Source of the DNA: Marinicella sediminis
GTDB lineage: Bacteria; Pseudomonadota; Gammaproteobacteria; Xanthomonadales; Marinicellaceae
Length of the DNA stretch: 64,000 nucleotides
Reading direction: 5' to 3'
Assembly (NCBI RefSeq): GCF_002000055.1
Contig: NZ_MVBD01000012.1
Span: 1-64,000 of the forward strand
Shown here: positions 843 through 50,872 of the stretch, piece after piece
Layout of the letters: each line of letters begins with the position of its first letter
Position numbering within the stretch: the first letter of the stretch is position 1
Notes under the pieces: generated by a model
Told to the model about the DNA's origin: nothing
What the model saw: only the letters and a program-made list of their open reading frames with translations
Database searches by the model: none
Made by a program: the position numbers and the translations under genes

Positions 843-3527
843 ATGATCAACTCATTTTACCGTCTGACCGCATTATTCCTGCTATCAATCACTGGTTCTG
901 CCATTCAGGCCAGGGAAATGGGGTGGCCGGATTTTTCTTATCAAAAAAACATCCCTACCATACATGATGTTCTGGGACATCAGCCAGGCGAACGGGTATC
1001 AACCCATGCCCAAATGATGACCTACATGCAGGCACTGGCCAAGGCAGCGCCTGAACAAATGAAAGTCTTCACTTATGCACAAACCTGGGAAGGCCGTCCA
1101 TTGATCTACGTGGTGATTGGATCTGCTGCACATCTGACGAAACTGCCTGAACTGACCAACCAGATTCAACAGCTATCAGATCCACGGCAGACAGACAACG
1201 ATGCGGCACGTAAACTGATCGATTCCCTGCCTGCCTCTGTGTGGCTGGGGTATGGCGTTCATGGCAATGAAATCAGCAGCACCGATGCGGCCATGTTAAC
1301 CGCATACCACCTGCTGGCCTCCGGGCATGAGCCCATGACCCAACAGATTCTGGACAACACCCTGGTATTCATTGACCCTTTGCAAAACCCGGATGGCCGC
1401 GATCGCTTTACTTCCCGATATTACAGCACGGTCGGCCTGGAACCCAGCCCGGATCGCTTCAGCGCTGAACACAATGAACCCTGGCCCAGTGGTCGCACCA
1501 ATCACTATCTGTTTGATATGAACCGGGATTGGCTGGCCATGACTCAGCCGGAAACCCAGGGCCGCATCAAAACACTCAACCAACACCTGCCACAAGTGGT
1601 CATAGACGTTCACGAAATGGGCGGTGACAGCTCGTATTACTTCGCGCCGGCAGCTGAACCGTTTAACCCATTGATGACCGCAGATCAAATCAACAACATG
1701 AACCTGATAGGCAAAAACCACGCCAAGCATTTTGACGCCATGGGCCATGACTATTTCACCCGCGAAGTATTTGATGCCTTTTACCCCGGATACGGGGACA
1801 GTTGGCCCACTTTTTACGGTGCCTCCGCATCTACCTACGAAGTGGCTTCAGCCAGAGGAGAAATTTTCAAAAGGCGTACTGGCGAGCAATACACCTACGC
1901 AGAATCAGTGCAACAACACTTTGTGGCTTCTGTCTCCACCATAGAGGCCACTGCACAATTGAGAAAACAACTGCTGTCTGATTTTTACCAATACCAGGTC
2001 AGCGCCATCAGGTCCGGTGAAAAAAGCCGGCAACGCTTTCACTTGATTCCAAAACAAACGGATCGCGCCGGAGCTCATAAACTGGCTACCTTACTCAGCA
2101 CACACGGCATTGAAGTACAACAAACCACCTCAGCCTCGCGGGCTTGTGGCACCCCCCTTCCCGCCGGCAGCTTCGTGATTGATTCAGCTCAACCCAGAGG
2201 ACGCATGGCTGAGACCATGCTGCGCCAACAGGTTGACATGGACCCGGCGTTCATTGAAAAACAAGAAGACCGTCGCCGCAAAAACCTGCGGGATCAGATA
2301 TTTGATTTAACCGCCTGGTCGTTGCCCTTGATGTTTAATCTGGATGTTGAACGGTGTGATTCGGTCAAATCCCAGACACTGCAACCATGGGATGGATCAG
2401 TGCCACTGACCGGGAGCATCTCAGAGGGCAGCGCGAGTATGGCGTACCTGGTACCCTGGAAGGACATGGCAGCTGGTCGTTTTCTCACCAAAGGACTTCG
2501 TCAGGGATTGGTCATCAAATCCACCGATTTACCTTTCACCCACAACAATGGGAAAAATTATCCTGCCGGCACCCTGATTATTGAAGTCAAAAACAACTCA
2601 GTCGATGTGGCAGAAACCATCAGGCAACTGGCAGAACAAACCGGCGCCCAGGTTGATGGAGTGAGCACCAGCTGGGTCATTAAAGGTCCTAATTTTGGTT
2701 CAATGAATGTGGTGACCATTCCCAAAATCAACATTGCCATGGCCTGGGATGAACCAACCAGTAGTCTGAGTGCTGGAAACACACGCTTTGTGATTGAGCG
2801 CCAATTGGGCTATCCGGTCACAGCCATTCGCAGCAAACACCTGAATGTGGCAGATTTGAGTCCCTATGACGTTTTGATTTTACCAGGTGGCAATTACCAG
2901 ACGATCTTCAGCAAATCTGGCTTGAGCAACATCAATGACTGGATCTCTGATGGTGGCGTGTTACTGACCCTCGGTCAGGCCACCGCATATGCGGCTGCAG
3001 AACAAACTGGCTGGCTGTCGGTCAAACCAGAACTGGCATTTCAGGAAACCGAAAAAGGCAAGAAAGCCAAAGGTGACAAAAAAGCAACGGCTCCAGGCCA
3101 ACTACTCAAAGAGGCCACCGATTTGCACAAAGCCATAGCAGATGATCAGGCCCGCCCTGATGCTGTTGCTGGTGTTCTCACCCGGGTAGCTGTAGATCAG
3201 GATCACTGGCTCACTGCTGGGGTCAAACCAGAAGTCATCGCTTTGGTTGCTGGCAGACAGATTTATACCCCAATACAGTTAAATAAAGGTCGTAATGTTG
3301 CTTGGTTCAAAGGACCAGATGACTTACTAGCCAGCGGCTATCTGTGGGAAGAAAATCGTCAGCAATTGGCTTACAAGCCATTCTTGATACACCAGCCCAA
3401 AGGCAAAGGCATGGTCATCGCGTTCACCCAGGAACCCACCATCAGGGCATTTCTGGATGGCTTACAACTGATGCTGACCAATACCCTGTTCCGCAGCGCA
3501 GCGCATTCGGCCAAAGTTCGCAGGTAA
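843..3527 (+). CDS. secreted M14-family zinc carboxypeptidase
   Basis: The 894-residue product has an N-terminal signal peptide (about residues 1-23, cleaved near IQA-RE) and an M14 metallocarboxypeptidase domain. The zinc ligands are visible: H140 and E143 in the HGNE motif, and H257 in VVIDVHEMG. The NPDGRDR segment near residue 182 and DMNRDW near 226 are also typical of M14. The C-terminal third contains a segment around residues 680-730 (LILPGGNY, then GGVLLTLGQA) that resembles a class I glutamine-amidotransferase-like fold, as in several large bacterial M14 proteins. It probably trims peptides or proteins in the periplasm or outside the cell. The ATG at 843 follows an AAGGGTG ribosome site. 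The gene stands alone and is convergent with the next gene. Confidence 0.88.
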   Translation: MINSFYRLTALFLLSITGSAIQAREMGWPDFSYQKNIPTIHDVLGHQPGERVSTHAQMMTYMQALAKAAPEQMKVFTYAQTWEGRPLIYVVIGSAAHLTKLPELTNQIQQLSDPRQTDNDAARKLIDSLPASVWLGYGVHGNEISSTDAAMLTAYHLLASGHEPMTQQILDNTLVFIDPLQNPDGRDRFTSRYYSTVGLEPSPDRFSAEHNEPWPSGRTNHYLFDMNRDWLAMTQPETQGRIKTLNQHLPQVVIDVHEMGGDSSYYFAPAAEPFNPLMTADQINNMNLIGKNHAKHFDAMGHDYFTREVFDAFYPGYGDSWPTFYGASASTYEVASARGEIFKRRTGEQYTYAESVQQHFVASVSTIEATAQLRKQLLSDFYQYQVSAIRSGEKSRQRFHLIPKQTDRAGAHKLATLLSTHGIEVQQTTSASRACGTPLPAGSFVIDSAQPRGRMAETMLRQQVDMDPAFIEKQEDRRRKNLRDQIFDLTAWSLPLMFNLDVERCDSVKSQTLQPWDGSVPLTGSISEGSASMAYLVPWKDMAAGRFLTKGLRQGLVIKSTDLPFTHNNGKNYPAGTLIIEVKNNSVDVAETIRQLAEQTGAQVDGVSTSWVIKGPNFGSMNVVTIPKINIAMAWDEPTSSLSAGNTRFVIERQLGYPVTAIRSKHLNVADLSPYDVLILPGGNYQTIFSKSGLSNINDWISDGGVLLTLGQATAYAAAEQTGWLSVKPELAFQETEKGKKAKGDKKATAPGQLLKEATDLHKAIADDQARPDAVAGVLTRVAVDQDHWLTAGVKPEVIALVAGRQIYTPIQLNKGRNVAWFKGPDDLLASGYLWEENRQQLAYKPFLIHQPKGKGMVIAFTQEPTIRAFLDGLQLMLTNTLFRSAAHSAKVRR

Positions 3528-3537
3528 CATCAAATTG

Positions 3538-4140
3538 TCAGGATTGTGGTGATGTTGGCTGACAAAAGTCATTAACACGTTCAGGACTCAGGTGTTCGCC
3601 GAGCTGATGGCTCAGGCGAACCGTCATGAACAGCAGTATCAGCCAACACAATGGCAGTACGATCAACACCAATCTGGCCCGCGCCCTGGCTTTGTGGCCG
3701 CGAATGACAGCAGTGGGTTTGAATACTTTTTGCCCTGGTAAAGGATGTTGTTTGACGCGCATCACCCTTTTCCAGTGCAATGCCACCGGAATACTTGCCA
3801 CGGTCATGATCAACAGCGGAGTGCTGATCAGAAGCTCCAATACCCACAGCATAGCCGACCGACCAAACCAATCCTGACAAGCCCATCCCGATGGCTCATT
3901 CAATGCCGGCAGTACCTGGTAATTAAGCAGCGCGAATAACGGTGCCAGCCACAAAACATGCAAACCCAGCTTGATCAGTTTTTCTTTGCGGCTGTATTCA
4001 GCAGCGTATTCAATACCCGGACGATGGGCTGCGGTGAACCAATTGAACTTCTGCTCATCCGAAGACCTGACAAACAACACCACCGCAATGGCCAGCAATG
4101 ACAACAGCACCACACACAACAAGATGGTGCCAAGATCCAT
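3538..4140 (-). CDS. integral membrane protein next to queA
   Basis: Unrecognised 200-residue protein. Hydrophobic segments lie at about residues 4-24, 60-80, 95-120 and 155-176, so three or four membrane passes are expected. Between them are polar, basic loops (for example KRVMRVKQH and RGHKARARAR). The gene starts 2 bases after the queA stop codon, so it is almost certainly co-transcribed with queA as the last gene of the rlmE-ftsH-folP-glmM-pcuAC-queA run. It ends 10 bases from the convergent M14 gene, and I see no terminator hairpin between them. Nothing in the sequence indicates a catalytic function. Confidence 0.6.
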   Translation of the reverse strand: MDLGTILLCVVLLSLLAIAVVLFVRSSDEQKFNWFTAAHRPGIEYAAEYSRKEKLIKLGLHVLWLAPLFALLNYQVLPALNEPSGWACQDWFGRSAMLWVLELLISTPLLIMTVASIPVALHWKRVMRVKQHPLPGQKVFKPTAVIRGHKARARARLVLIVLPLCWLILLFMTVRLSHQLGEHLSPERVNDFCQPTSPQS

Positions 4141-36657: not shown

Positions 36658-37344
36658 TCATTCAGTTTCAGCTATTTTCAGGCCGACACCAGGAATGGTA
36701 TGCAACAATTGGTTATCGAAGGGTTTATCGATGGTTTTACGCAGGATATACAAATGGCTTCGCAAGACATCTGAGTCAGGAATCAGATCTCCCCACAATT
36801 GTTGTGCAAGTTGATCCTTGGTAACAATTTCCGGAGACTTTTTCATCAACACTTTGAGTATTTGCAACCCAGTGGGTGATACTTTCAGCTTTTGATTACC
36901 GCGAACAACTTCCATGGTACCCAAATCAAACACCAAATCACCGACTTTCAATGCTTTGGAATCAAACTCACCCCGATGCCGCCTGACCATCGACTGTAAG
37001 CGAGCCACCAACTCATCCGGATTGAAGGGTTTGGCCAGGTAATCATCTGCACCATTGTCAAATCCTTTGAGTTTATCGGCGATCTGATCACGGGCTGTCA
37101 GCATGATGATGGGTACATCAGACTTGGCTTCCTTCCGAATTTTTTCACATATTTCAAATCCATCGATACCCGGCAGCATGACATCCAGAATGATGGCGTC
37201 ATAGGTATTGGTTACCGCCAAATGCAGACCGGTGATGCCATCTGCCGCAAAATCAACGGTAAAATCTGCCATTTCCAGGTGATCTGCAATGGTCTGTGCC
37301 AAGGCGTGATGATCTTCTACGATGAGTACACTGATGCTGTTCAT
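36658..37344 (-). CDS. OmpR-family response regulator of the lipid-cluster two-component system
   Basis: The 228-residue product has an N-terminal receiver domain with the phospho-acceptor in AIILDVMLPGIDG (D51), the conserved Thr/Ala in MLTARDQ and the lysine in LAKPF, then an OmpR/PhoB winged-helix DNA-binding domain (TGLQILKVLMKKSPEIVTKDQLAQQLW and the HLYILRKTI recognition segment). The ATG overlaps the kinase stop codon (ATGA). It is the last gene of the nine-gene unit that begins with the desaturase, so it is transcribed with the lipid-modifying genes and probably regulates them. Confidence 0.95.
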   Translation of the reverse strand: MNSISVLIVEDHHALAQTIADHLEMADFTVDFAADGITGLHLAVTNTYDAIILDVMLPGIDGFEICEKIRKEAKSDVPIIMLTARDQIADKLKGFDNGADDYLAKPFNPDELVARLQSMVRRHRGEFDSKALKVGDLVFDLGTMEVVRGNQKLKVSPTGLQILKVLMKKSPEIVTKDQLAQQLWGDLIPDSDVLRSHLYILRKTIDKPFDNQLLHTIPGVGLKIAETE

Positions 37345-38684
37345 AATTGTTCCTTCCTGGCTGACGCCAATATGTCGATGTCTTCTAAAGTAAGTATGGC
37401 ACGGGTGCCCTGTTTTAGCACGCTTTCAAAACGAATTTCCCAGCCACACTGTTTACAAACCATGTCTACGATGGATAAGCCCAATCCAAAGCCTTTTTCA
37501 CTGCCATGTTCATCGGCACGGTAGAATGGTTCCATGATGCGATCCAACTGTTCTCTGGACATTCCCCGGCCGTTATCCTCAATGATGATGTTGCGACCAT
37601 TGATACGCACAGTGATTTCTGCCGGATCTGCTGAGTAAATCACCGCATTTCTGACCAGATTGCTGACCACAATGGAAAATAATTGTTCAGGCAAATGCCC
37701 CTGTATCAAGTGTTCCGGTTTCCAGTTAAGCCCAATTTCTCTTGGACAAAACAACGCGATGGTGTCTTCCACGGTCGATTTTAACAGATCATTGATCAGT
37801 ACCGGTTCATCCGATATATCAATCACCTCATCACGTGACATCATCAGCAAAGCCTCGATCAAAGCCTGCATCTCTTCGATCATTGGTTGCATCCGATTAA
37901 CCAATTGTGCACTTTTCTCATCCAGATCCTGGCGCTTCAGCAAAGACATGGAACCACGCAACACCGTCAGTGGCGTACGCAATTCATGTGATGCGTAGCG
38001 GGAAAAGTTACGTTCGCGGTTGATCATTTGTGAAATTCGTTTGGAAAAGGCCTCAAAGGAATCAATCAGGGTATTCACATCCACATTTCCAATCTGCTTG
38101 ATGTCGTCGAATTTCATATCGTCCAGACCGGATTTAGAGATTTTGGCATGTTCCAGCCGGTTGACCAACTGCAACACAGGTGAAAACGCCCGTTTTGAGA
38201 ACACGTAAGACACAAATGCCGGTAAATAAACAATCAACAATACGATGATCAGTGGTGTGATGCCGAAATACAGTGCCAGTTTTGAAACCTGAGCTTCTTC
38301 AAAAATCAAAAACAACTGGTGATTGTCTTTTCGGGTTTCATAAACGATTGGTCTTTTGTTATTCAAATCAATCCTTTGGTAGGGCTTTTCCACTGAACGC
38401 AATACCTCAGGCACCTGTGAATAATCTCCATCGGTAACCATGTAGCCGGTCAGATTCATGGTTTTTGGCAAAGGAAAAGCCGCATCTTTGGCTTTGTGCG
38501 ACCAGTAAAACTCCGCTTCGCCGATCAAAGCCTCTTTGATCAACACATCTTCTACCACTTTAGCCGCCCCAATGACCCCGCCCACTGTGGCGATGCTGAT
38601 AAAAACCAGCTGAATAATAAACACTTTATTCAGCCGGCTGATCATACTGCCTTTACCGGCTTTGATTTTGCCAGATTTAATCAT
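37341..38684 (-). CDS. membrane sensor histidine kinase
   Basis: The 447-residue product has two membrane helices (about residues 20-42 and 175-197) around a periplasmic sensor of roughly 130 residues, a HAMP-like linker, a HisKA domain with the phosphorylated His in FSRYASHELRTPLTVLRG, and an ATPase domain with SNLVRNAVIYS (N box), IIEDNGRGM (G1) and GFGLGLSIVD (G2). The sensor domain has no recognisable fold. The start overlaps the stop of the upstream methyltransferase gene (ATGA). The position suggests sensing of membrane or lipid state; that is inference. Confidence 0.93.
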   Translation of the reverse strand: MIKSGKIKAGKGSMISRLNKVFIIQLVFISIATVGGVIGAAKVVEDVLIKEALIGEAEFYWSHKAKDAAFPLPKTMNLTGYMVTDGDYSQVPEVLRSVEKPYQRIDLNNKRPIVYETRKDNHQLFLIFEEAQVSKLALYFGITPLIIVLLIVYLPAFVSYVFSKRAFSPVLQLVNRLEHAKISKSGLDDMKFDDIKQIGNVDVNTLIDSFEAFSKRISQMINRERNFSRYASHELRTPLTVLRGSMSLLKRQDLDEKSAQLVNRMQPMIEEMQALIEALLMMSRDEVIDISDEPVLINDLLKSTVEDTIALFCPREIGLNWKPEHLIQGHLPEQLFSIVVSNLVRNAVIYSADPAEITVRINGRNIIIEDNGRGMSREQLDRIMEPFYRADEHGSEKGFGLGLSIVDMVCKQCGWEIRFESVLKQGTRAILTLEDIDILASARKEQL

Positions 38685-39709
38685 TGTTTACTGAACAGAT
38701 AATGAGCAACCAACCATTGCTGACCCTGATCATATCCGAACAGCTCAGCACAGGACATGAAAAAGATTCGCCAGCGTTGAAACCATAATCTGGCCTCAGC
38801 TCCATAAACCCGTTCAAAGACCGGCATGATATTGGCTTTATGGCGGTCCATGTTCTCCAACCAATGATTGGATGTTTTTTCATAGTGCTGACCAGAATTG
38901 AGCCACCTGCGTTCAATTTTCAAACGCTGTTGAAAATGATAAAAGGTGTCTGCGGCAGGCATTTGACCTCCGCTGAAAAAGTATCGCCCCATCCAATTAT
39001 CATCACCTTCTGCTAAAAATGGATACATCAGATATCGATGACAAAACACATGTACAAACATTTTACCATCGTCCTTTAGCCAGTCAGCAATGTTATTAAA
39101 CAGATTCTCGTAATTACGCACATGTTCAAACATTTCAATACTGATGACCCGATCGTACTGCTCATTGAGGAGCAGTTCATTGATGTCACAGGTGAGGATG
39201 TGCACATTGTCTAACCCACGTTCTTTGGCCTGCCCCATGATATAACGCCGTTGCGAGTTCGAATTGGATACTCCGGTGATGCGGGAACCGGGAAATTGCT
39301 CAGCCAAATACAAGGTGATGGATCCCCAGCCACAGCCCAGTTCCAAAATATCCTGCCCGTCAACAAATTCACCGCGTTCAACATAAAGTGCCAACATGTT
39401 TTCTTCGGCTTCGTCCAATGATTCATTGCCCTGGTAAAAACAAGAGGAGTATTTACGCCGGGCACCCAGGGCATACTGATAAAAATCAGCGTCAACCTCA
39501 TAGTGCTGTTCATTGGCTTTATCCGTTTCTATGGCCAAAGCTGATGATTTGATTTCCTGCAGGAATTGGTGGTATTTCAGATCTTGTTTTTCAACATCAT
39601 CGGCGCACTCTTCCTTCAACCGCTGCCTGACCAGCTTTCTGATGCCAGCACGTACCACGGCATCCGGCAAGTATCCTTTCTCGACCCATTGGATCATGGC
39701 TTTAATCAT
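38681..39709 (-). CDS. SAM-dependent methyltransferase, CFA-synthase-like
   Basis: The 342-residue product has the Rossmann SAM motif ILELGCGWGSITLYLAEQFPG, then ITGVSNSNSQRRYI and VISIEMFEHVRNYENLF, features shared by cyclopropane-fatty-acid synthases and the plant-type coclaurine methyltransferase group. It differs from the true CFA synthase also encoded here in lacking the GHYDLGNDLF segment, so it probably methylates another lipid or intermediate. It overlaps the kinase gene by 4 bases and the DUF1295 gene by 8. The two methyltransferases in one unit suggest successive or alternative methylations of a fatty acyl chain. Confidence 0.85.
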   Translation of the reverse strand: MIKAMIQWVEKGYLPDAVVRAGIRKLVRQRLKEECADDVEKQDLKYHQFLQEIKSSALAIETDKANEQHYEVDADFYQYALGARRKYSSCFYQGNESLDEAEENMLALYVERGEFVDGQDILELGCGWGSITLYLAEQFPGSRITGVSNSNSQRRYIMGQAKERGLDNVHILTCDINELLLNEQYDRVISIEMFEHVRNYENLFNNIADWLKDDGKMFVHVFCHRYLMYPFLAEGDDNWMGRYFFSGGQMPAADTFYHFQQRLKIERRWLNSGQHYEKTSNHWLENMDRHKANIMPVFERVYGAEARLWFQRWRIFFMSCAELFGYDQGQQWLVAHYLFSKQ

Positions 39710-40481
39710 CTTTTGTTCTCCATATAATAAATTGGCTGGTTTTTTTCATGTATGCCCGGTATGCATCACCTCGTTTCAGCAGTGCCTGCTGCTCAGAAAA
39801 AGGAATGCCTGTGAGCTTCAGCAGGAACAGCAGCATCATGCCAACAATGAACCACGACCAGATAAAATAGTCGGTGTTCCACAATAAAATGGGATACACC
39901 AACCAGTGTATCCACTCAAAAAAGTAATTCGGGTGACGGGAGTAGCGCCACAGCCCAACGTTGCATACTTCACTGGAATCATGGGTTTTCTTAAATCGGT
40001 ACAATTGATGATCGGCAAGTGTGACTCCAATGAAGGACAATCCCCCCCACACCAATGCCAGTAACAAAGCCCCCAATGACAGATCAGCAGCGGTTATCAC
40101 CCAGTAAGCGGGCAAAGAAAACAACACCGACAAGCCGGCCTGAAACAGAAAAAAACCCAGGAATTTTTGCTGTGTGTGTGCAGACCAGTGTGCCCTTAGG
40201 TATTGATATCGACTGTCTTCATGATCCACATCATAGCGCATGATCAGATGCAGCAGCAGACGGCCATACCAGATCACAGGAAACAACAACACCGCCACCA
40301 GTGTCAGTGTGTCTACGGGTGTCAGCCACAGGTAGAGCAATGCACACATGACGATTCCCAGGGTCCAGGCAATGTCTACCACATCGGCATTATGGGTTTG
40401 ATATTGCCGAAACCAGGCAATCAGCTGCAAAGCCAAACACATCAATGTGGCCAGCAACAGGGGTTGTTCAAACCAAGACAT
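39702..40481 (-). CDS. DUF1295 (steroid 5-alpha-reductase-like) membrane protein
   Basis: The 259-residue product has six or seven hydrophobic helices and the C-terminal signature LWRYSRHPNYFFEWIHWLVYP of DUF1295, related to steroid 5-alpha-reductases and isoprenylcysteine methyltransferases, enzymes that act on lipid substrates with NADPH or SAM. It could reduce a double bond in an acyl chain. The start is the ATG at 40481 with GGAGG upstream; the GTG one codon earlier is less likely. It overlaps the DUF2878 gene by 14 bases. Confidence 0.87.
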   Translation of the reverse strand: MSWFEQPLLLATLMCLALQLIAWFRQYQTHNADVVDIAWTLGIVMCALLYLWLTPVDTLTLVAVLLFPVIWYGRLLLHLIMRYDVDHEDSRYQYLRAHWSAHTQQKFLGFFLFQAGLSVLFSLPAYWVITAADLSLGALLLALVWGGLSFIGVTLADHQLYRFKKTHDSSEVCNVGLWRYSRHPNYFFEWIHWLVYPILLWNTDYFIWSWFIVGMMLLFLLKLTGIPFSEQQALLKRGDAYRAYMKKTSQFIIWRTKDD

Positions 40482-40989
40482 CACGACCCTCCGGCTGGTT
40501 GTGGATTTGGGTGAGGATCAGGAAATATACCAGCCAGGTCAGGCCAATGGTGATCATGACAGGCCAGGGTTGCAACAATTCTACGGCGCCCAGTCTGGAA
40601 GCAGAATAGTAACTCAAAGGCGCACCAATGAGCATAAAGACAGCTCCCAAGGCGGGGCTTTTTAGCATCCAGTTCATACCCGTCCTGATGGTGGCAGCAA
40701 AACCCAACCACAGCATCATGATCCAAAAGGGCGGCAAATACCTGAGGTCATGCATTTGCGCTGCATAAACCAACCAGCCTGTGCTGTTCAAAAAACCATC
40801 AATCAGCAATCCGCACAGCAGGCTGATGAGGATGACCTTACAGTCTTTTCGATCAAAACCCTGATAGACAAAGACCACCGCGAGTAATAAAAACAGACTG
40901 AGTATGGCCGGCAGAAGCAGCGCATTGGCGGCACCCAATACACTGGCAAACCACAACAGGTTTAATAATATGATTTGCGCCACAACCAT
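40468..40989 (-). CDS. DUF2878 integral membrane protein
   Basis: The 173-residue product has five or six hydrophobic helices and few polar loops, and matches DUF2878, which is found almost only in clusters with CFA synthase, DUF1365 and FAD oxidoreductase genes. Its biochemical role is unknown; a membrane subunit or transporter for the modified lipid is possible. The ATG at 40989 shares its A with the CFA stop codon (TGATG), so translation is coupled. Confidence 0.8.
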   Translation of the reverse strand: MVVAQIILLNLLWFASVLGAANALLLPAILSLFLLLAVVFVYQGFDRKDCKVILISLLCGLLIDGFLNSTGWLVYAAQMHDLRYLPPFWIMMLWLGFAATIRTGMNWMLKSPALGAVFMLIGAPLSYYSASRLGAVELLQPWPVMITIGLTWLVYFLILTQIHNQPEGRDVLV

Positions 40990-42248
40990 CACTGAAACGC
41001 CTGTATCGAATCACGACGATTACCCGGGCGGGCAAATAACAAATGTACGTCACTGATGGCACGCTCCCAAAAGCCACCTTCACAATAACTCAGGTAAAAT
41101 CGCCACATGCGTTGGAAAGTGCGGTCATATCCGCAGGCTTCAACCTGCTCAATGTTGTCATTGAACCTGGTTTGCCAGTCACGCAAAGTCAAGGCATAAG
41201 AATCACCAAAATCTTCAAGATTAACCAGCTTCATGTCAGTACTGCTGGCATTGGCCGACAAGATCGCACCAACCGAAGGTATAAAACTACCCGGAAATAT
41301 GTACTTTTTGATGAAATCCACCGACTTCAAGGCTTGTTGATAGCGACAGTCTTCAATGGTGATGGCCTGTATCAAGGCCAGCCCATCTGGCTTCAACAAA
41401 GCGTTACACTTTTCAAGGTAAGTCTGCAGAAAGTGATGCCCAACGGCTTCAATCATCTCAATGGACACCAGTTTGTCGAATGTGCCGGTCAGCTCGCGAT
41501 AATCTTTCTTCAGCAATGTGATTTGATTTTCCAGCTGAAGTTCTTTGATTTTGGCTGCCGCATAGGCGTGTTGTTCATCTGAAATTGTGGTAGTGGTCAC
41601 CCGGCAACCATGGTGCTGAGCGGCATATATGGCAAAACCACCCCAACCTGTACCGATTTCTATCACATGGTCATCGCGGGTCAATTGTAACTTTTCGCAA
41701 ATCACCCTCAACTTTCGTTCACTGGCGGTTTCCAGGTCATCATCATGACTGGCGTATATTGCCGAAGAATACATCATTCGTGAGTCCAGAAACAATTCAA
41801 AAAGATCATTGCCCAGGTCATAATGCCCGGCGATGTTCTTGCGACTGCCACTGAGGGTGTTTTTATTAAAGAAATGCCCCACTTTTAACATGGCATTCTT
41901 GATTCTGGCGCTGCCACCTTCCATGTTGTCCAGTAAATCCCTGTTTCGCACGAACAGTTGTATCAAGGCTGTCAGGTCATCCGTTTCCCAGTCTCCGGCC
42001 ATATAGGACTCAGCTGCTCCCACACTTCCCTGAAAAGCCACGTGAGAAAAAAAATCCTCATTGTAAACTTCAATGGTGGCTCGCAAATCTGCATCTGCAT
42101 CACCCAGTGTCAGGGTTTGCTCTGACAATTTCAGGGTCAGACAGGCATCGGTTAATAGCGCTAACTGTCTGATGACCTGCTTTTTGAGGAAGGGCCTGAT
42201 CAAGCCTTTGTTGGAATTGTTTTTACTCATGGTCTCCGCGTGGCTCAT
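40989..42248 (-). CDS. cfa: cyclopropane-fatty-acyl-phospholipid synthase
   Basis: CFA synthase adds a methylene from SAM across the double bond of unsaturated phospholipid acyl chains. The 419-residue product has the N-terminal domain, the GHYDLGNDLFELFLDSRMMYSSAIY substrate segment, the SAM motif VIEIGTGWGGFAIYAAQHHG, and the VSIEMIEAVGHHFL and FIKKYIFPGSFIPSV blocks. The frame is open to 42305, inside DUF1365, but the ATG at 42248 has GGAG 6 bases upstream and is preferred. A 6-bp hairpin (ACATGC/GCATGT) lies in the 34 bases between the two genes. Confidence 0.93.
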   Translation of the reverse strand: MSHAETMSKNNSNKGLIRPFLKKQVIRQLALLTDACLTLKLSEQTLTLGDADADLRATIEVYNEDFFSHVAFQGSVGAAESYMAGDWETDDLTALIQLFVRNRDLLDNMEGGSARIKNAMLKVGHFFNKNTLSGSRKNIAGHYDLGNDLFELFLDSRMMYSSAIYASHDDDLETASERKLRVICEKLQLTRDDHVIEIGTGWGGFAIYAAQHHGCRVTTTTISDEQHAYAAAKIKELQLENQITLLKKDYRELTGTFDKLVSIEMIEAVGHHFLQTYLEKCNALLKPDGLALIQAITIEDCRYQQALKSVDFIKKYIFPGSFIPSVGAILSANASSTDMKLVNLEDFGDSYALTLRDWQTRFNDNIEQVEACGYDRTFQRMWRFYLSYCEGGFWERAISDVHLLFARPGNRRDSIQAFQ

Positions 42249-42282
42249 AAGGTTCTCCGCTGACATGCTTTCAAGGCATGTG

Positions 42283-43068
42283 TTAATGTCGCTCGGGGTG
42301 AGCAATAAATGGAATTCGTTTCAGCCATAACTTCAATGCCTGCCAATAAATCCCGGCTGCCATTTTCCACGGCTGAAAAGGTCTTTTCAGAACGTGTCTT
42401 TTGATGCTATTCTCCACAGCAGGTGTGATTTTAGTGTCTAAAAGTACCTGCATCAGTTTCACACCCTTTTGATGAAGTGACATCCGCACAACAATGGCCT
42501 CGGCGGTGACTTCAAATTGCCATTGATAATCAATGTCCATACTCATGAAGGGTGAAATGTGGAATGCCTTGCTGAATGCAAAAGTCCAGTTTTGACCGGT
42601 TATTTCAGCTTGCTGACAATCATGAAAATACAGGTGCTTTTCCCCCCAGGGTGTGTTGTTTATCTCTGAGATGATGTATCTCATCTGCCCCGCCAGTTGA
42701 CAGAAATAAAAATTAACAGAGTTGAAGCCGAAACCCAGAAATCTTGGATGGGTGAATAACTGAATGCGCCCATTAAATGGCTGACCGGTTTGTTGTTTGA
42801 TGTATTCCCTGACTTTATGACCAATTGGCAAGGGCTGATCATCGATGTAATCCTGGTCCTTGATGGCAAAGACGCCCCAACGATTGTGACGCCATTGCCG
42901 TGAAGAATTGGTCCAGAAAGACAGATCATCCACATCCATAATGCACCAATTCATGTGATATTTGAAACGGTGCCTCTTTGGATGCATCCGGTGGTGTATC
43001 ACCGTTCCGTCAGCAAACCCCTGAGGCAACAGGTTGGCCGAACCGTTCTGCTGAACATCCTCACTCAT
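42283..43068 (-). CDS. DUF1365 protein
   Basis: The 261-residue product matches DUF1365: GTVIHHRMHPKRHRFKYHMNWCIMDVDDL at the start, then the FNSVNFYFC segment, NTPWGEKHLYFHDC and FHISPFMSMDIDYQW. Members are always near FAD oxidoreductase and CFA synthase genes; the function is unproven. The ATG at 43068 overlaps the stop of the FAD oxidoreductase (ATGA), which decides the start over the longer frame from 43152. Confidence 0.9.
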   Translation of the reverse strand: MSEDVQQNGSANLLPQGFADGTVIHHRMHPKRHRFKYHMNWCIMDVDDLSFWTNSSRQWRHNRWGVFAIKDQDYIDDQPLPIGHKVREYIKQQTGQPFNGRIQLFTHPRFLGFGFNSVNFYFCQLAGQMRYIISEINNTPWGEKHLYFHDCQQAEITGQNWTFAFSKAFHISPFMSMDIDYQWQFEVTAEAIVVRMSLHQKGVKLMQVLLDTKITPAVENSIKRHVLKRPFQPWKMAAGIYWQALKLWLKRIPFIAHPERH

Positions 43069-44303
43069 AGCTGATCTTGCAATGCTTTGGCCGCCTTGAC
43101 ACCACTGCGCGCACCATCTTCGTGAAACCCCCAACCCAGATACGCGCCACAAAAGAACGTGTTGTGTTTACCCTGGATGGACTCAATTTGTTGTTGTGCG
43201 GACAGGGTGTCACGGTTATACACTGGGTGCTGGTATTTTCTGGAAACCAGTATCTGACTGTTGTTGATGTATTCATTTTGGTTGAGACTGACGATGACCG
43301 GAGTCTCACAAGGCAGTGATTGCAACAGGTTCATGTAATAATTGACGGTACAAACTGGCTTGCTGATCACGTGCTTATTAACGCTCCAGCTGGCCCAGGC
43401 CTTGCGGTTGGCAGGCAATAATCGTTCGTCGGTGTGCAAATCCATATGATTCTCGACATAGGGAATGGCTGCCAAGGCTGCTTGTTCCACTGCATCCGGA
43501 TCTTTCAGTATGTTCAGGGTCACATCTGAATGGGTGGCAAAGATCACCCGGTCAAATGCTTCAGCCTGCTGATCTGTCTCAACCACCACACCACCGTGGT
43601 TCCGGCTGACTCCAATCACCGGGGTATTCAGCCTCACTTCACCTGTGAGTTGTTCACTCAGCGCCTTGACATAGGCCCGGGAGCCACCCTTGATGGTGCG
43701 CCATTCAGGCCGTTTGTTCAGCTGCAACATCTGATGGTTTTTCATGAACTGCAGCATGTGAACCAACGGATAGTCCCTGACTGTATCAAAATCTCCTGAC
43801 CACAGTGCGCTGACCATGGGGATGATGTGTTCCTCAATAAAATAGTCGCTGTAATTGTTCTGTTCAAGGTAATCATACAAACCAATTTCTGTACCGCTTT
43901 GGATCAGTGATTCAGCCTTGGCATAAAACCGTCGGATATCCCATATCATGCGATAAAAACCGGGATTGAACAGGTTTTTTCTCTGACAAAACAAACTGGA
44001 AAGATTGGTTGCATTGTATTCCAGTCCGGTGACTTTATTGGACACAGCAAAACTCATATCCGATTTGATTGAAGGCACTTCATGTCGCTGTAACATGTCA
44101 TTAAAATGCCGGTATACATCTTCATTGAAAACAATGAACCCGGTATCAACTTCAATGGCTTGACCATCAATATGAACGGTTTGGGTATCTGCATGCCCGC
44201 CCAGATAATCAGCTGCTTCATACAAAGTATAGTCAACCAAACCATTGAGGTAATCTGCTGCCATCAGACCTGAGACACCCCCACCTATGATGGCAACCCT
44301 CAT
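43065..44303 (-). CDS. FAD-dependent oxidoreductase, amine-oxidase-like
   Basis: The 412-residue product has the N-terminal FAD-binding Rossmann motif VAIIGGGVSGLMAADYL, the following acidic residue at the end of strand two (LYEAADYLGG), the substrate-domain segment GSRAYVKALSEQL, and the C-terminal FFCGAYLGWGFHEDGARSG flavin-binding motif. It belongs to the group of predicted NAD/FAD proteins encoded with DUF1365 and CFA synthase, thought to act on unsaturated fatty acyl chains. In Rhodobacter related genes belong to the RpoE-ChrR singlet-oxygen regulon. The ATG overlaps the desaturase stop (ATGA). Confidence 0.9.
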   Translation of the reverse strand: MRVAIIGGGVSGLMAADYLNGLVDYTLYEAADYLGGHADTQTVHIDGQAIEVDTGFIVFNEDVYRHFNDMLQRHEVPSIKSDMSFAVSNKVTGLEYNATNLSSLFCQRKNLFNPGFYRMIWDIRRFYAKAESLIQSGTEIGLYDYLEQNNYSDYFIEEHIIPMVSALWSGDFDTVRDYPLVHMLQFMKNHQMLQLNKRPEWRTIKGGSRAYVKALSEQLTGEVRLNTPVIGVSRNHGGVVVETDQQAEAFDRVIFATHSDVTLNILKDPDAVEQAALAAIPYVENHMDLHTDERLLPANRKAWASWSVNKHVISKPVCTVNYYMNLLQSLPCETPVIVSLNQNEYINNSQILVSRKYQHPVYNRDTLSAQQQIESIQGKHNTFFCGAYLGWGFHEDGARSGVKAAKALQDQL

Positions 44304-45220
44304 GAATCACTCCTGATCAATCGTTTTTCCAGCAGGGTTTTGTTGGGGTACTTGAGGTCCCAAATCAATCCCAGTTTATTCATCACAAACAAAACATAAA
44401 AACTCAAATCGATCTGCCACCACCTGAACCCTTGTTTGACCGATCCTGGACAACAATGATGATTATTGTGCCAACCTTCTCCCAGGGTAAAGACTGCCAG
44501 AATGAAATTGTTTCGACTGTCGTCTTTTGTCTGGTAAGACCTGAAGCCAAAAACATGAGCCAGTGAATTGATGCAATAAGTGACGTGTGAAAGCATCACA
44601 GTGGAAATAAAATAACCCCAAATCACCATCTGCCCTGCTGACGTATTGAGCTGTGGATAATGATTGGCCAGGTAACCTCCCAACAAGTAGAGTCCACAGG
44701 CCATGAGCACTGGAAAGAGGATGTCAAAACGATCAATGAAACGGAGTTCCGGAAATCGCTCAAGATCCCTGACATATTCAGACTTTATGGGAAAATTCTT
44801 TTTCATCAAAAACCATTTCAGATGACTGTGCCAGAAACCGTGCTTAGGTGAATGGGTGTCTTGTTCTGAATCCGAATGAATGTGGTGATGCCGGTGGTGG
44901 GCAGCCCACCATATAGGACCTCTTTGAGTGGCTGTGGCACCAATAACAGCAAATATAAATTGCAGGATGCGGGATGTTTTGAATGATTTGTGTGAAAAAT
45001 AACGGTGGTAAAATGCGGTGATTGCAAACATTCTCAGCAAATATGTGGCTAGGCAAACCCAAAGTGCAACCCAGGAAAATCCGACCACCAATACCAGCAG
45101 ACAAGCCAGATGGATGGCAATGAATGGCACAATCCGGGTCCAGTCAATGGCATCGGAATCAGTTAAATCTTCAACTTCACTTTGGGTGTTATCGAACCAT
45201 TTTGTAAGGATGTTTTTCAT
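44300..45220 (-). CDS. membrane acyl-CoA/acyl-lipid desaturase
   Basis: The 306-residue product is a fatty-acid desaturase of the delta-9 type, with the three iron-binding histidine boxes HRYFSH, HHRHHH and HNNHH, and four or more membrane helices. It introduces a double bond into a saturated acyl chain using O2. The frame extends to 45331, but the ATG at 45220 (MKNILTKWF) gives the normal family length; neither has a strong ribosome site. It is the first gene of the desaturase-FAD-DUF1365-CFA-DUF2878-DUF1295-methyltransferase-kinase-regulator unit and could supply the double bond that the later enzymes act on. Confidence 0.92.
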   Translation of the reverse strand: MKNILTKWFDNTQSEVEDLTDSDAIDWTRIVPFIAIHLACLLVLVVGFSWVALWVCLATYLLRMFAITAFYHRYFSHKSFKTSRILQFIFAVIGATATQRGPIWWAAHHRHHHIHSDSEQDTHSPKHGFWHSHLKWFLMKKNFPIKSEYVRDLERFPELRFIDRFDILFPVLMACGLYLLGGYLANHYPQLNTSAGQMVIWGYFISTVMLSHVTYCINSLAHVFGFRSYQTKDDSRNNFILAVFTLGEGWHNNHHCCPGSVKQGFRWWQIDLSFYVLFVMNKLGLIWDLKYPNKTLLEKRLIRSDS

Positions 45221-45273
45221 GCATGCAGCGTTGATTAATAACCCCCATGTTAGAAACCATTCAGTGAAAAATC

Positions 45274-45317
45274 TGTGAACCCATGAACCCAGTTTGACTA
45301 CGGATACGTGGTTCACA
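45274..45317. promoter_or_regulatory. inverted repeat between divergent lipid-cluster genes
   Basis: TGTGAACC (45274-45281) and its complement GGTTCACA (45310-45317) flank 28 bases; a third copy of the half site, TGAACCC (45284-45290), follows the first directly. It sits between the desaturase operon and the divergent lipoprotein gene and is a candidate binding site for the cluster's response regulator. Confidence 0.4.
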
Positions 45318-45330
45318 CCAATTACACGCA

Positions 45331-45359
45331 TTGACCCTTAAACTTTACTTTTTTACAGA
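45331..45359 (+). promoter_or_regulatory. possible promoter of the NTF2-like lipoprotein gene
   Basis: TTGACC (45331-45336), a 17-base spacer and TACAGA (45354-45359). The start would lie only about 5 bases before the ATG, giving a nearly leaderless mRNA. Low certainty. Confidence 0.35.
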
Positions 45360-45370
45360 CACATCAATCA

Positions 45371-45925
45371 ATGAAGATTTTACTGATTATTCTGATACTG
45401 GCAGGTTCATTGTATGCCTGTAGCAGCTCACCTGAGTTAAAGCACAACCGCACTGCCGATGAATACTTCAGTTACCTGGAACAAACGCCAGCCACCACTG
45501 AACATGACGTGGAAAGCACCTTCGGAATTATTTTTTCGGATTTCAAGTCTGGCGCGACTGAATCCAACATCAGATCAGTGTATGCCAATGAACTGTATTT
45601 TAATGATACCCTCAAGATCATATACAACATTGATGATTTGGTGTCGTACATGTCTGAATCAGCCGCACATGTTGACAGCACCACTGTTGACATCCTGGAT
45701 GTTATCAGAAGCGATCAAGATTATTTCATCAGATGGTCTATGAAGATGAAACTCAGTGTGCGCGGGAAATCCATAAACTCACATTCCATCGGCATGACCC
45801 AATTGCGTTTCAATGAAGCAGGCAAAGTGGTTTTTCACCAGGATTTTTGGGATGCCTCGGAAGCCCTGTATGAACATTTGCCGATTCTTGGCAGATGGGT
45901 CAAAAAAGTCAAAGATATGATGTAA
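45371..45925 (+). CDS. NTF2-like (SnoaL-like) lipoprotein
   Basis: The 184-residue product has a lipoprotein signal ending in LYAC (C17) and a domain of the NTF2/SnoaL-like fold: a helix with YANELYFNDTLK, then paired strands around STTVDILDVIRSDQDYFIRWSMKMKL and VVFHQDFWDASEALYEHLPILG. Such proteins accompany CFA synthase/FAD oxidoreductase clusters and are thought to bind a hydrophobic ligand. It is divergent from the desaturase operon and 1 base before the chalcone-isomerase-like gene, so the two are co-transcribed. Confidence 0.8.
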   Translation: MKILLIILILAGSLYACSSSPELKHNRTADEYFSYLEQTPATTEHDVESTFGIIFSDFKSGATESNIRSVYANELYFNDTLKIIYNIDDLVSYMSESAAHVDSTTVDILDVIRSDQDYFIRWSMKMKLSVRGKSINSHSIGMTQLRFNEAGKVVFHQDFWDASEALYEHLPILGRWVKKVKDMM

Positions 45926-45926
45926 G

Positions 45927-46484
45927 ATGTTCCGTATGATTAGTAAAAAATTTACTGCACTCGCTTCACTGCTGCTTTGCCAGACGGCCTGGGCAACGGA
46001 TAATCTGCCATCAACGATCAGCCACAACACCGCAGATTTTCAATTATGTGAAGACTTCACCCTGCGCTATGGCGTGGTGATCAAGGTAGCTGAAATAGGC
46101 TGGTACGCACCTGATTGTTCAGCCTCGGTTTCTTTGCTGGAAGCCAACCAGAAAATCCTCCGCTTTCATTATCACAAGAACGTATCCGGTGATTTTTTCA
46201 GGGAAAGTGCCGAAGAATATTTTTTGATTAATCTTGAAAATAAAGAACAGCAACGCGATTTAACCCAACCATTGCAACAATTTAACCAAGGCTATACGGA
46301 CATCAAGTCCGGTGAATACTTTGATCTGGTACACTGGCAGGACAAAGAACTGAATCTATTCAAAAACAATCAGCTCCTGGCCAGCACGACCAACCCCATA
46401 CTGGCCAATAAATATTTTAATATCTGGTTTGGCAAATCACCGGTCATCAATAAACTCAAAAAAGCGTTCATTGAATCTCCCTGA
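45927..46484 (+). CDS. exported chalcone-isomerase-like protein
   Basis: The 185-residue product has a signal peptide (about residues 1-24, ending AWAT) and resembles the chalcone-isomerase-like family: FTLRYGVVIKVAEIGWYAPDC at the front, LRFHYHKNVSGDFF, and ILANKYFNIWFGKSPVINKLKKAF at the end. The family fold binds fatty acids in plants and bacteria. It recurs in CFA/DUF1365 clusters. Together with the preceding lipoprotein it may carry or modify the product of the cluster in the periplasm. It starts one base after the preceding stop. Confidence 0.82.
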   Translation: MFRMISKKFTALASLLLCQTAWATDNLPSTISHNTADFQLCEDFTLRYGVVIKVAEIGWYAPDCSASVSLLEANQKILRFHYHKNVSGDFFRESAEEYFLINLENKEQQRDLTQPLQQFNQGYTDIKSGEYFDLVHWQDKELNLFKNNQLLASTTNPILANKYFNIWFGKSPVINKLKKAFIESP

Positions 46485-46560: not shown

Positions 46561-47508
46561 TCAAAGGTTATTGCGCAAGCCCAGTTCGTAGGGATAGGGA
46601 GAAAGGTATTTCTGATTCATCAGGTATTCAATCTGATACAAATCCACGTAATGTTTGAGCATGGTGATGGGCACGATCAGATGGATTTTTTGTTCTTTGT
46701 AACGATCAATCAGCTTGATGATTGACATTTTCACTTCACCTGGTATTTTTGATTTCAAAAAGCCCAACATGTGCAACAACACATTCACGTGGTTATTGAC
46801 CTTGGCCACATGACTCAAACATTCCGAAAACAATTCAAAGTACTGCCCAAGGATTTCATCAATGGGTTTAACCCCGGCATCGGCCACCAACTGACCCAGT
46901 TTCCGGTAATGTGCTTCACTGTGGGCCTGTAATAAAAACTTGTACCGGGTGTGGAAAGCGACCAGTTTGTGGGGCGCTGGTTCATTGAGCACATGGGTTT
47001 TCCAATCGTGATTGGCAAACACCCGGATAATGAAGTTTTCCCGCAAGCGAATGTCATTGATGCGTCCGGCCTCTTCCATGGGTAACAATGGGTAATGCGA
47101 TTTGAGTTGTTGAGCAAATGCACCCATTCCCGGTTCCGTTTCAGGCATACCATTGGGGTTGTATACTTTGACCCGGAAGACACCACAACTGGGCGACTTC
47201 TGCATGAAAATATAGCCACACAGGTCATTCAGCTCAGGCGCCCGATGGTCAGCCAATTGTTTCAGTTGATCCGTGTAATCACGGCTGTGGTCCGTGACAT
47301 TTTTGACCCTGATCTGATTATTCTCATTGACCAGCCTGATTGGCTCCCGGGGAATACCCATGCCAATCTCCACCTCTGGGCACACTGGAACAAACTCAAA
47401 CCACTCAGACAGCACCTGACTACAGAATACAGAATTCTTATGCGAACCATTGAATCTGACGGGTTGTCCCAGTAAACACGCACTGATACCTACTTTAATT
47501 TTTTCCAC
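46561..47508 (-). CDS. DUF523/DUF1722 fusion protein
   Basis: The 315-residue product joins an N-terminal DUF523 (VGISACLLGQPVRFNGSHKNS, KSPSCGVFRVKVY) with a C-terminal DUF1722 (HDWKTHVLNEPAPHKLVAFHTRYKFLLQAHSEAHYRKLG region). This is the YbgA-type composition; in several bacteria such genes lie near photolyase or CFA-type clusters. Function is unknown; DUF523 contains conserved Cys in CLLG and SCG. The frame opens at a TTG (47520), but a GTG at 47508 has GGAG six bases upstream and is preferred. Confidence 0.85.
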   Translation of the reverse strand: MEKIKVGISACLLGQPVRFNGSHKNSVFCSQVLSEWFEFVPVCPEVEIGMGIPREPIRLVNENNQIRVKNVTDHSRDYTDQLKQLADHRAPELNDLCGYIFMQKSPSCGVFRVKVYNPNGMPETEPGMGAFAQQLKSHYPLLPMEEAGRINDIRLRENFIIRVFANHDWKTHVLNEPAPHKLVAFHTRYKFLLQAHSEAHYRKLGQLVADAGVKPIDEILGQYFELFSECLSHVAKVNNHVNVLLHMLGFLKSKIPGEVKMSIIKLIDRYKEQKIHLIVPITMLKHYVDLYQIEYLMNQKYLSPYPYELGLRNNL

Positions 47509-47574
47509 GGTTTGCTCCAAGGATGACTGAGATCAAATAGTATGCCACCACACGTGGATTTTGTGTGCAGATGA

Positions 47575-49507: not shown

Positions 49508-50620
49508 TCAATGCATACAATTGATCAATGAGCGGTCTCCATCATGCATCTTCAGTAATTTCTCATCCATCACCCGGAACCATAATGGCGGTACATAGGC
49601 GAGTAAAAACATCCCCATATAACCGGTTGGCAACTGTGGCGCTTCAGCAAAATGCCGCAAACTCTGATAATGCCTTGCAGGATTGGCATGATGGTCTGAA
49701 TGGCGCTGTAAATGAAACAACACGAGGTTCGAAATGAGGTGATTTGAATTCCAGGAGTGCCTGGGTTCACACCTTTGATATTGGCCATTGTCACGTTTTT
49801 GCCGCAATAAACCATAATGTTCTATGTAATTGGCACTGGTTAATTGCCACCAGACAATTGGGGCATGCAACATCATGATCATCAGTGCAGACCAGCCAAG
49901 CCACACAGTCATGCCGGCATATATCATAACCGTCATGGCATAAGCCTGCAGGATTTGATTATCAAAGGCATACCAGCGTTTGCCTTGTCGCCCCAACCTT
50001 TGCGTCTCAATAGACCAGGCACGCTTGATACCTCCAGGGTATTCACGCAATGCAAACCGATAGATGCTTTCCCCAAGACGAGCGCTGGCCGAGTCCTCAG
50101 GTGTGGCCACTTGCCGGTGATGACCAGCATTGTGTTCAATGTTGAAATGACCATAAGCTCCGGTGGCCAATGACAGTTTGGCCAGCATTTTCGATAAGCG
50201 GTCTTTCTTGTGTCCAAGTTCATGACCCAGATTGACAGCCAAGCCACCAAACACACCCAATGTCAACAACAACAATGCCTGTTGCCAAACGTCAAGGGGT
50301 TGAGTCACCATGAAATATATCAAAGTCATGAAAACGAGCAAATGCAGTGGCAGCATCAGGTACAACACCCAATTGTAAAATGCATTGTGTTCCAGGGATG
50401 TTATTTGGCGCTCATCAGGGTTGCTCTCATCCGTGGAGAACAGCAAATCCAGCCCAGGTATCACCAAATAGATGAACAGCAAAGGAATCACCAATGTCCA
50501 GGACTGGCCGGTGAACTGATAGGTTCCCACTCCGCTGAGCCCCAATAAGGGCAACAAGGTTGACAGTATCCACAGGTACTTTTTGGGTTTTTGAGGCGTC
50601 TTGGCTTTCGTGATTTTCAT
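49508..50620 (-). CDS. alkB: AlkB-type alkane 1-monooxygenase
   Basis: The 370-residue product is a membrane di-iron hydroxylase of the AlkB family, which oxidises the terminal methyl of alkanes. Conserved histidine boxes are visible: HELGHKKD, EHNAGHHRQVATPEDSASAR (family signature EHxxGHH) and LQRHSDHHANPARHYQSLRH, plus NYIEHYGLLR. Six hydrophobic segments lie in the first two thirds. The frame is open to 50713, but a promoter and operator at 50649-50677 fall inside that extension, so the ATG at 50620 (MKITKAK) is chosen. No rubredoxin gene is adjacent. Confidence 0.93.
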   Translation of the reverse strand: MKITKAKTPQKPKKYLWILSTLLPLLGLSGVGTYQFTGQSWTLVIPLLFIYLVIPGLDLLFSTDESNPDERQITSLEHNAFYNWVLYLMLPLHLLVFMTLIYFMVTQPLDVWQQALLLLTLGVFGGLAVNLGHELGHKKDRLSKMLAKLSLATGAYGHFNIEHNAGHHRQVATPEDSASARLGESIYRFALREYPGGIKRAWSIETQRLGRQGKRWYAFDNQILQAYAMTVMIYAGMTVWLGWSALMIMMLHAPIVWWQLTSANYIEHYGLLRQKRDNGQYQRCEPRHSWNSNHLISNLVLFHLQRHSDHHANPARHYQSLRHFAEAPQLPTGYMGMFLLAYVPPLWFRVMDEKLLKMHDGDRSLINCMH

Positions 50621-50648
50621 GATACAGATCGTGGCTGAGTATGCATTC

Positions 50649-50677
50649 ATGATAAAACAGACTGACCGATCGGTCAA
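50649..50677 (-). promoter_or_regulatory. alkB promoter overlapping a TetR-type operator
   Basis: Minus strand: -35 TTGACC (50677-50672), a 17-base spacer and -10 TATCAT (50654-50649). The perfect palindrome TGACCGATCGGTCA (50663-50676) covers the -35 region and part of the spacer, a classic repressor position for a TetR-family regulator. Confidence 0.7.
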
Positions 50678-50872
50678 CAATTTTTGGTGACACCACTTAT
50701 TCCACCCTTTCAATTGACACTTTTTGCCCGGTTAACTGATCACTGCACTCATCATGGCTTATTGCAACAATGGGTTTGGCAAGACTGGCCCACTGATGTC
50801 ATCTACCATAAAGCAACACTGGTCAAGCTGACCTCAGTTGCGATAAGATAATATAAGAACTCTTGGCACACC

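Follow-up and report, generated by a model that had tools for sequence, protein, structure and literature searches.

A lipid-modification operon with a built-in two-component system in Marinicella sediminis and its relatives

Introduction

What controls a set of membrane-lipid genes that elsewhere stands beside a sigma/anti-sigma switch when, as in Marinicella sediminis, the same genes carry a sensor histidine kinase (HK) and a response regulator (RR) in their own operon? The locus lies in a stretch of 64,000 nucleotides (NCBI RefSeq assembly GCF_002000055.1, contig NZ_MVBD01000012.1, positions 1 to 64,000; hereafter the window), where seven lipid-related genes are followed by the HK and RR genes. 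The explanation that we favor, and hold with reasonable confidence, is that the operon makes and handles furan-type (methylated, oxygenated) acyl chains of phospholipids, which shield the membrane against photo-oxidative or similar oxidative stress, and that the built-in two-component system switches the operon on. It builds on the anatomy, homology and co-occurrence of the genes, the alternation of their regulators and the conserved boxes in their promoters; from these we infer the reactions, the signal, the phosphotransfer and the DNA binding. Published work cited by PMC number is represented here by excerpts. L labels denote loci and G labels genomes, G000 being the window's own.

Results

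Anatomy of the operon

The operon consists of nine open frames on the minus strand (36658-45220) without internal stops. It begins with a fatty acid desaturase (DES, 44300-45220; PF00487, 4e-21), in which the histidines of the HxxxxH, HxxHH and HNNHH motifs are conserved in all 55 aligned relatives. A FAD oxidoreductase resembling UfaD (FAD, 43065-44303; PF01593, 1.6e-18), a UfaO-like DUF1365 protein that is a putative furan-forming oxygenase (42283-43068; PF07103, 2.4e-67) and a UfaM-like S-adenosylmethionine (SAM) methyltransferase of the CFA family (MT1, 40989-42266; PF02353, 4.8e-74) follow. Next come a DUF2878 membrane protein (40468-40992; PF11086, 2.9e-30), a DUF1295 protein with weak similarity to steroid 5-alpha-reductases (39702-40484; PF06966, 9.5e-47; PF02544, 1.7e-6) and a second SAM methyltransferase, possibly a second methylase (MT2, 38681-39709; PF02353). 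The last two genes encode the HK, which has a small periplasmic sensor (37341-38684; HisKA and HATPase_c, with linkage and structure models as further evidence), and an OmpR-type RR (36658-37344; Response_reg and Trans_reg_C); in NCBIfam, neither kinase nor regulator scored above its cut-off. The gene names that an earlier note had assigned from the sequence alone were borne out by Pfam, with the qualification that its second CFA-like gene, MT2, is nearest in the PDB to plant coclaurine/pavine N-methyltransferases (6gkv, 1.9e-71 over residues 5-341).

At the chosen starts, the eight junctions measure -4 (DES/FAD), -4, +16 (DUF1365/MT1), -4, -17, -8, -4 and -4 bases, so that the tight nine-gene run described in the earlier note holds; its figure of 34 bases for the largest gap is compatible with MT1 starting at 42248. 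For the desaturase, the ATG at 45220 is the probable start, giving 306 aa, the commonest length in the open reading frame (ORF) lists of relatives. The listed DUF1365 frame (42283-43152) appears to start too early, and the ATG at 43068 is likelier because it gives a 4-base overlap with the FAD gene. Across an intergenic gap at 45221-45370, an NTF2-like lipoprotein gene (45371-45925, plus strand; weak DUF2358/SnoaL_2 matches, under cut-off) and a gene for a chalcone-isomerase-like (CHI) exported protein (45927-46484, plus strand; PF16036, Chalcone_3, 6.4e-16) diverge from the operon, as the earlier note had said and as Pfam and a frame check confirmed.

Linkage of the kinase to the lipid genes

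Among 33 genomes of the window's family, DUF1365 was found in 20 and the kinase in 19 (E <= 1e-60), with both in 18 (Fisher 3e-6). The p-values given here are too small, since the species are related and independence is overstated. In 16 of the 18 co-occurring cases the two genes lie within 10 kb, and in the other two on separate contigs; the kinase and regulator are therefore not found elsewhere in most relatives, the outcome that the earlier note had named as contrary to its reading. The family exceptions are G123 (kinase not found), G019 (ECF-ChrR, no kinase) and G050 (the pair without DUF1365). A complete DES-to-RR run in one direction was present in 10 of the 14 family loci with listed ORFs (L052, L055, L056, L057, L060, L061, L062, L066, L067 and L069), so that the search for the same gene order in relatives proposed earlier gave a positive answer. 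These runs were judged by ORF lengths, supported by alignments of FAD, MT2 and HK; for RR, Pfam confirmation covers L061 and L066 only. The remaining four differ: in L053 the RR gene is on the opposite strand, the kinase is missing from L063 (G019), and L054 and L058 are cut short by contig ends or by the limits of the stretch analyzed.

Linkage across the order was assessed in 94 genomes, the best-ranked among 207 with a match out of 398 searched. For kinases ranked 0-60, 48 of 61 were within 10 kb of DUF1365, eight were on other contigs and five had no DUF1365, and the 48 linked genomes are spread over four families. One of these, G119, is linked only via a decayed 91-residue fragment with stops, its intact DUF1365 lying ~22 kb off (47/61 without it), and the count omits DUF1365 pieces that are second or very weak matches in G163, G171, G216, G137 and G045. 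None of the 33 kinases ranked 61-93 was linked to DUF1365, which disfavors the idea that the operon's kinase is a general paralogue.

Regulators beside the lipid block

Named loci were taken from one scan with the MT2 alignment (the best 80 of 583 confirmed), from which records near the window's genome may have been left out. DES, FAD, DUF1365, MT1 and MT2 were all present in 53 of the 80 (full blocks), spanning Xanthomonadaceae, Acinetobacter, Achromobacter, Kangiella and metagenome-assembled genomes named Verrucomicrobia/Opitutia and Planctomycetes. The DES-FAD-DUF1365-MT1 order is kept in every full block; 31 have the window's exact seven-gene order and 14 that order minus a detectable DUF2878. 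DUF2878 was not detected in six Acinetobacter loci (L093, L103, L105, L108, L112 and L115).

The regulators adjoining the full blocks, labeled by tblastn bit-score thresholds of our choosing, are a two-component pair in nine, a pair of the extracytoplasmic function (ECF)-RskA type in 13, ECF11-ChrR in five, MerR with B12-binding domains (MerR-B12) in two and ECF-RskA plus MerR-B12 in one (L126); in 23 no regulator was seen. MerR-B12 adjoins the block or MT2 in L126, L131, L140, L149 and L150. Four full MerR-B12 loci have MT2-DUF2878-DUF1295 and then DES-FAD-DUF1365-MT1, and therefore look like two sub-modules.

At E <= 1e-30, 70 of the 398 genomes of the order have ChrR, and none of the 61 kinase genomes does, against 10.7 expected. 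It lies within 15 kb of DUF1365 in 50 of the 70, farther off on the same contig in three and on another contig in 11, six having no coordinate. In the window's own genome, which is 98.3% complete, the best ChrR match reached 33.8 bits against a cut-off of 124.5. G019, from the same family, has FAD-DUF1365-MT1 beside an ECF sigma factor and ChrR, and no kinase was found in it. The two-component pair appears to replace the sigma/anti-sigma switch found beside the same lipid genes elsewhere. This upholds the contrast drawn in the earlier note between ECF/anti-sigma control in other bacteria and a kinase-regulator pair here, given that kinase and lipid genes keep together in the family. The lipid-protection module is a known one and this way of regulating it a new variant, which is also present outside the window's genome. 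Among the papers listed from the open-licence literature (titles, abstract openings and term counts) we found no report of a kinase-regulator pair inside the block, of its alternation with ECF-ChrR or of a shared box, and lipid-gene terms were not found in PMC9948694.

Known systems place related genes under other regulators. By its published gene descriptions, rather than by sequence, the Stenotrophomonas maltophilia cluster smlt2375-smlt2367 has the gene order of the window's operon: desaturase, FAD oxidoreductase, hypothetical protein, CFA synthase, two inner-membrane hypothetical proteins and a second CFA synthase. In a chrR mutant its level is up >160-fold, and the superoxide tolerance of that mutant is reverted when the cluster is deleted (PMC11832516). 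There the ECF sigma/ChrR operon (RpoEc-ChrR-ChrA) is divergent and a lipocalin gene is terminal (PMC11832516), whereas the window's two-component pair lies inside the operon; no lipocalin was found among the scanned window genes, and no genome-wide search was made. Stenotrophomonas loci L080 and L082 carry all seven window families beside ECF11-ChrR. In Pseudomonas mendocina, ufaM (25-33-fold up) and a photolyase gene are co-induced by light through LitR-associated MerR-type light regulators, where the window has a kinase (PMC9758184). In Vibrio cholerae, VC1122, a putative CFA synthase, is up in blue light, and VC1123, a DUF2878 protein, is annotated in the regulon of the MerR-type PhrR, in contrast to the window's two-component system; this locus is likened to the window's by description alone (PMC5241685, PMC12971978).

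Possible products of the enzymes

In the Rhodobacter sphaeroides/Rhodopseudomonas palustris pathway UfaM-UfaD-UfaO(-FufM), the SAM methylase UfaM, UfaD and the DUF1365 protein UfaO take phospholipid vaccenate through methyl-ene and methyl-diene intermediates to a furan acid, and FufM adds a second methyl group to the furan fatty acid (PMC7380195). By type, the window has counterparts of the methylase, UfaD and DUF1365 steps of that pathway; unlike the pathway, its operon also includes DES, DUF2878, DUF1295, MT2 and a two-component system. A FAD protein, DUF1365 and a CFA-like methylase are consecutive in the window, matching a UfaD/UfaO/UfaM-type trio. DUF1365 is the direct family link to the Ufa pathway, MT1 and FAD being matched to UfaM and UfaD by type, gene order and neighborhood rather than by direct sequence comparison. 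Judged in this way, the counterpart of UfaD is the FAD protein and not the membrane desaturase.

When MT1 was aligned with E. coli Cfa (6bqc), a Gln was found in place of a Cfa His in the LLHTIG stretch. This Gln is kept in all 61 relatives scoring >300 bits, with adjacent E, I and Y conserved too, and recurs in the ChrR-neighboring MT1 homologue of G019 (38% identity). The Cfa His presumably serves the cyclopropane reaction (ring closure), and an ordinary cyclopropane synthase is disfavored for MT1. The earlier note had allowed a methylated, cyclopropane or furan-type product; together, the trio and the replacement of the Cfa His favor the furan and speak against the cyclopropane.

MT1 would methylate a phospholipid-bound monounsaturated chain, to which the FAD protein would add a conjugated double bond; DUF1365 would then insert an oxygen derived from O2 and so close the furan ring. 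Substrate for these steps may come from the membrane desaturase. MT2, DUF1295 and DUF2878 may form a second sub-module, perhaps attaching another methyl group in the manner of FufM. MT2 and MT1 share 27% identity, similar to the 26% between FufM and UfaM (PMC7380195). Residues E195, H196, H220 and H224 of MT2 are present in all 80 aligned sequences.

The block might instead make another product, such as a branched or otherwise oxidized fatty acid or a lipid N-methylated by MT2, its kinship with furan synthesis being historical only. Such a product would account for the four genes beyond the three-gene furan set (DES, DUF2878, DUF1295 and MT2), for the full-length similarity of MT2 to N-methyltransferases and for the mere 26% identity of DUF1365 to the ChrR-linked copy in G019. 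We consider it unlikely, as the FAD-DUF1365-MT1 order is never broken among the full blocks and the MT1 Gln is common to the ChrR-linked homologue. The FAD protein shares 41% identity with its ChrR-linked counterpart in G019.

The sensor domain and its signal

In the predicted model, the periplasmic part of the kinase comprises a long helix and four short strands, followed by the second membrane helix. Residues E56, W61, P73, T75, N77, L78 and Y81 are invariant among the sensors of the window, Kangiella, HTCC5015, Acinetobacter, L119 and L123. A fold search with the sensor gave only weak matches, none at E <= 0.001, the best being Cache-type ligand-binding domains (E 0.029, TM 0.27). These weak Cache-like matches disfavor a photoreceptor kinase, and a chemical envelope signal is, judging from the model, likelier than light itself. 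The kinase would sense a periplasmic or envelope signal through this small domain and phosphorylate the regulator.

A signal such as temperature, fluidity or another envelope cue, with the operon serving a homeoviscous rather than an oxidative response, would suit a desaturase as the first gene and a sensor model without a confident photoreceptor match. Such a role is doubtful, because a photolyase gene neighbors the system or carries its box, a fasciclin gene is boxed, and the block alternates with ECF-ChrR and MerR-B12 regulators.

Promoter boxes

The furan-protection explanation has the regulator binding TTCACA-N5-TTCAC repeats just upstream of the -10 element at the divergent promoters. 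A putative box of this form faces the lipid operon at 45264-45279 (minus strand), upstream of a possible -10, TAACAT (45252-45247, minus strand). In 14 aligned family promoters the box is invariant or nearly so and lies ~11 bases before an invariant TA..AT. A second box with one mismatch faces the NTF2-CHI pair (45312-45327, plus strand), where opposite-facing half-sites 11 bases apart are partly conserved in the same 14 promoters. Across the whole window, four matches with up to one mismatch were found against 2.9 expected, not above chance, so that the case for the box rests on position and conservation. A promoter and terminator scan did no better than shuffles.

Within 250 bases upstream of the desaturase, a box with <=1 mismatch was present at seven of nine two-component loci and at 0 of 44 other loci (Fisher 2.3e-7). 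These 53 loci are L149 and all full blocks except L094 (52 blocks); the two-component loci L091 and L123 are not among them. A matrix built from the 14 family sites ranked the desaturase promoter first and the NTF2 side second in HTCC5015; in Kangiella the desaturase promoter came second, behind the top-ranked promoter of DUF523-photolyase. In Acinetobacter, the NTF2-CHI-RR promoter ranked first in four loci and a lipocalin promoter in one. In the six Acinetobacter loci, RR is convergent with the kinase and lies behind NTF2, CHI and a TTCAC box, which suggests autoregulation in a different layout. Of 11 named two-component loci, 10 have a homologue of the NTF2-like gene.

A TTCAC-N6-TCAC variant occurs at -85 to -93 upstream of the desaturase in L077, L079, L092, L101, L104 and L107, where no regulator was seen; it is perhaps for an unlinked regulator.

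Possible members of a wider regulon

In the window's genome, one exact box lies between divergent fasciclin and CIA30 genes (L169 1337-2724, G000:C43). The boxed pair recurs in G057 (L176), and boxed CIA30 genes are found in G093 (L174) and in G083 (L175), where the box stands at the start of the listed frame. The fasciclin RSP_1409 is a member of the Rhodobacter RpoE regulon and is up under singlet oxygen (PMC7074977). Other exact boxes lie upstream of an alpha/beta hydrolase gene, at a site without a listed downstream gene, and upstream of a second OmpR-type RR-HK pair (box at L166 1978, pair at 2137-4113, G000:C12) whose RR is 44% identical to the operon's.

A DUF523/DUF1722 protein encoded next to the NTF2-CHI pair (46561-47520, minus strand; PF04463, PF08349) is a possible member of the wider regulon. 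In Kangiella a DUF523 homologue precedes photolyase, with an exact box at L073:844. Photolyase adjoins the regulator in G098, G078 and G133; in the window's genome, photolyase matches lie on other contigs.

The second RR-HK pair adjoins a divergent DJ-1/PfpI gene, and its 16-base site recurs in G057, G088, G078 and G157, similarly sized ORFs being listed in L170, L172 and L173. Close to the operon, the window encodes a second PF00487 protein (49508-50713, minus strand, 401 aa), whose His-rich motifs we take to be reminiscent of alkane monooxygenase.

Discussion

Several results weigh against furan-based protection under the operon's own two-component system. The two-component arrangement is a minority (9/53 full blocks), DUF1365 is poorly conserved relative to the ChrR-linked copy, and the Acinetobacter kinases share no more than 27-29% identity with the window's. 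The sigma-ChrR mutants of S. maltophilia are unchanged in singlet-oxygen tolerance (PMC11832516). No box was found at the two-component loci L119, L123 and L091. In Acinetobacter, the desaturase site comes only fourth or fifth in L093, L112 and L108 and falls outside the top five in L103, L105 and L115, and the top rank in L112 goes to a site within coding sequence near DUF1365. Exact boxes are few genome-wide: five against one for the reversed pattern in the window's genome, 67 against 35 in 18 genomes of the genus, and two against five in G050. The exact box upstream of the second RR-HK pair means that the box may not belong to the operon's regulator. Finally, G050, of the same genus, has a DUF523 gene, a MASE6-GGDEF gene, HK and RR at L153 (G050:C1, 7712-12070), its RR being 88% identical to the operon's; DUF1365 was not found in that genome and no lipid genes are listed at the locus, the other lipid genes not having been searched genome-wide. 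Either, then, the pair has further targets, or G050 lost the lipid genes only recently.

That the two-component system is a co-transcribed neighbor with targets of its own, the lipid promoter answering to another regulator such as the second RR-HK pair, would fit both G050 and the boxed second pair, but is improbable in view of the kinase-DUF1365 linkage in four families of the order, the kinases adjoining the block in Kangiella, HTCC5015 and Acinetobacter with a box at the desaturase promoter, and the confinement of desaturase boxes to two-component loci in the named set.

Under the favored explanation, in which the operon's own pair switches on furan synthesis, the kinase and regulator genes stand last in the operon and would therefore form a self-amplifying loop. 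A bolder extension, which we regard as possible rather than likely, is that the kinase reads oxidized membrane lipid, possibly a breakdown product of the furan chain, and drives a regulon of furan lipid, photolyase, lipocalin and fasciclin-CIA30 genes via the 11-base TTCAC repeat. If so, a lipid-sensing feedback loop would be closed, like that described for ChrR turnover in Rhodobacter (PMC6852236), and a lipid-readout kinase route would replace sigma-E/ChrR in Kangiella, Acinetobacter and the window's family.

G050 offers a natural experiment for further targets of the two-component system. More broadly, the sensors next to this one conserved lipid-protection module are of at least four kinds (ECF-ChrR, ECF-RskA-type, MerR-B12 and two-component), and comparing them would reveal which signal matters to the module. 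The same wiring occurs in six Acinetobacter loci, and photo-oxidative and membrane-lipid responses in that genus are of practical interest.

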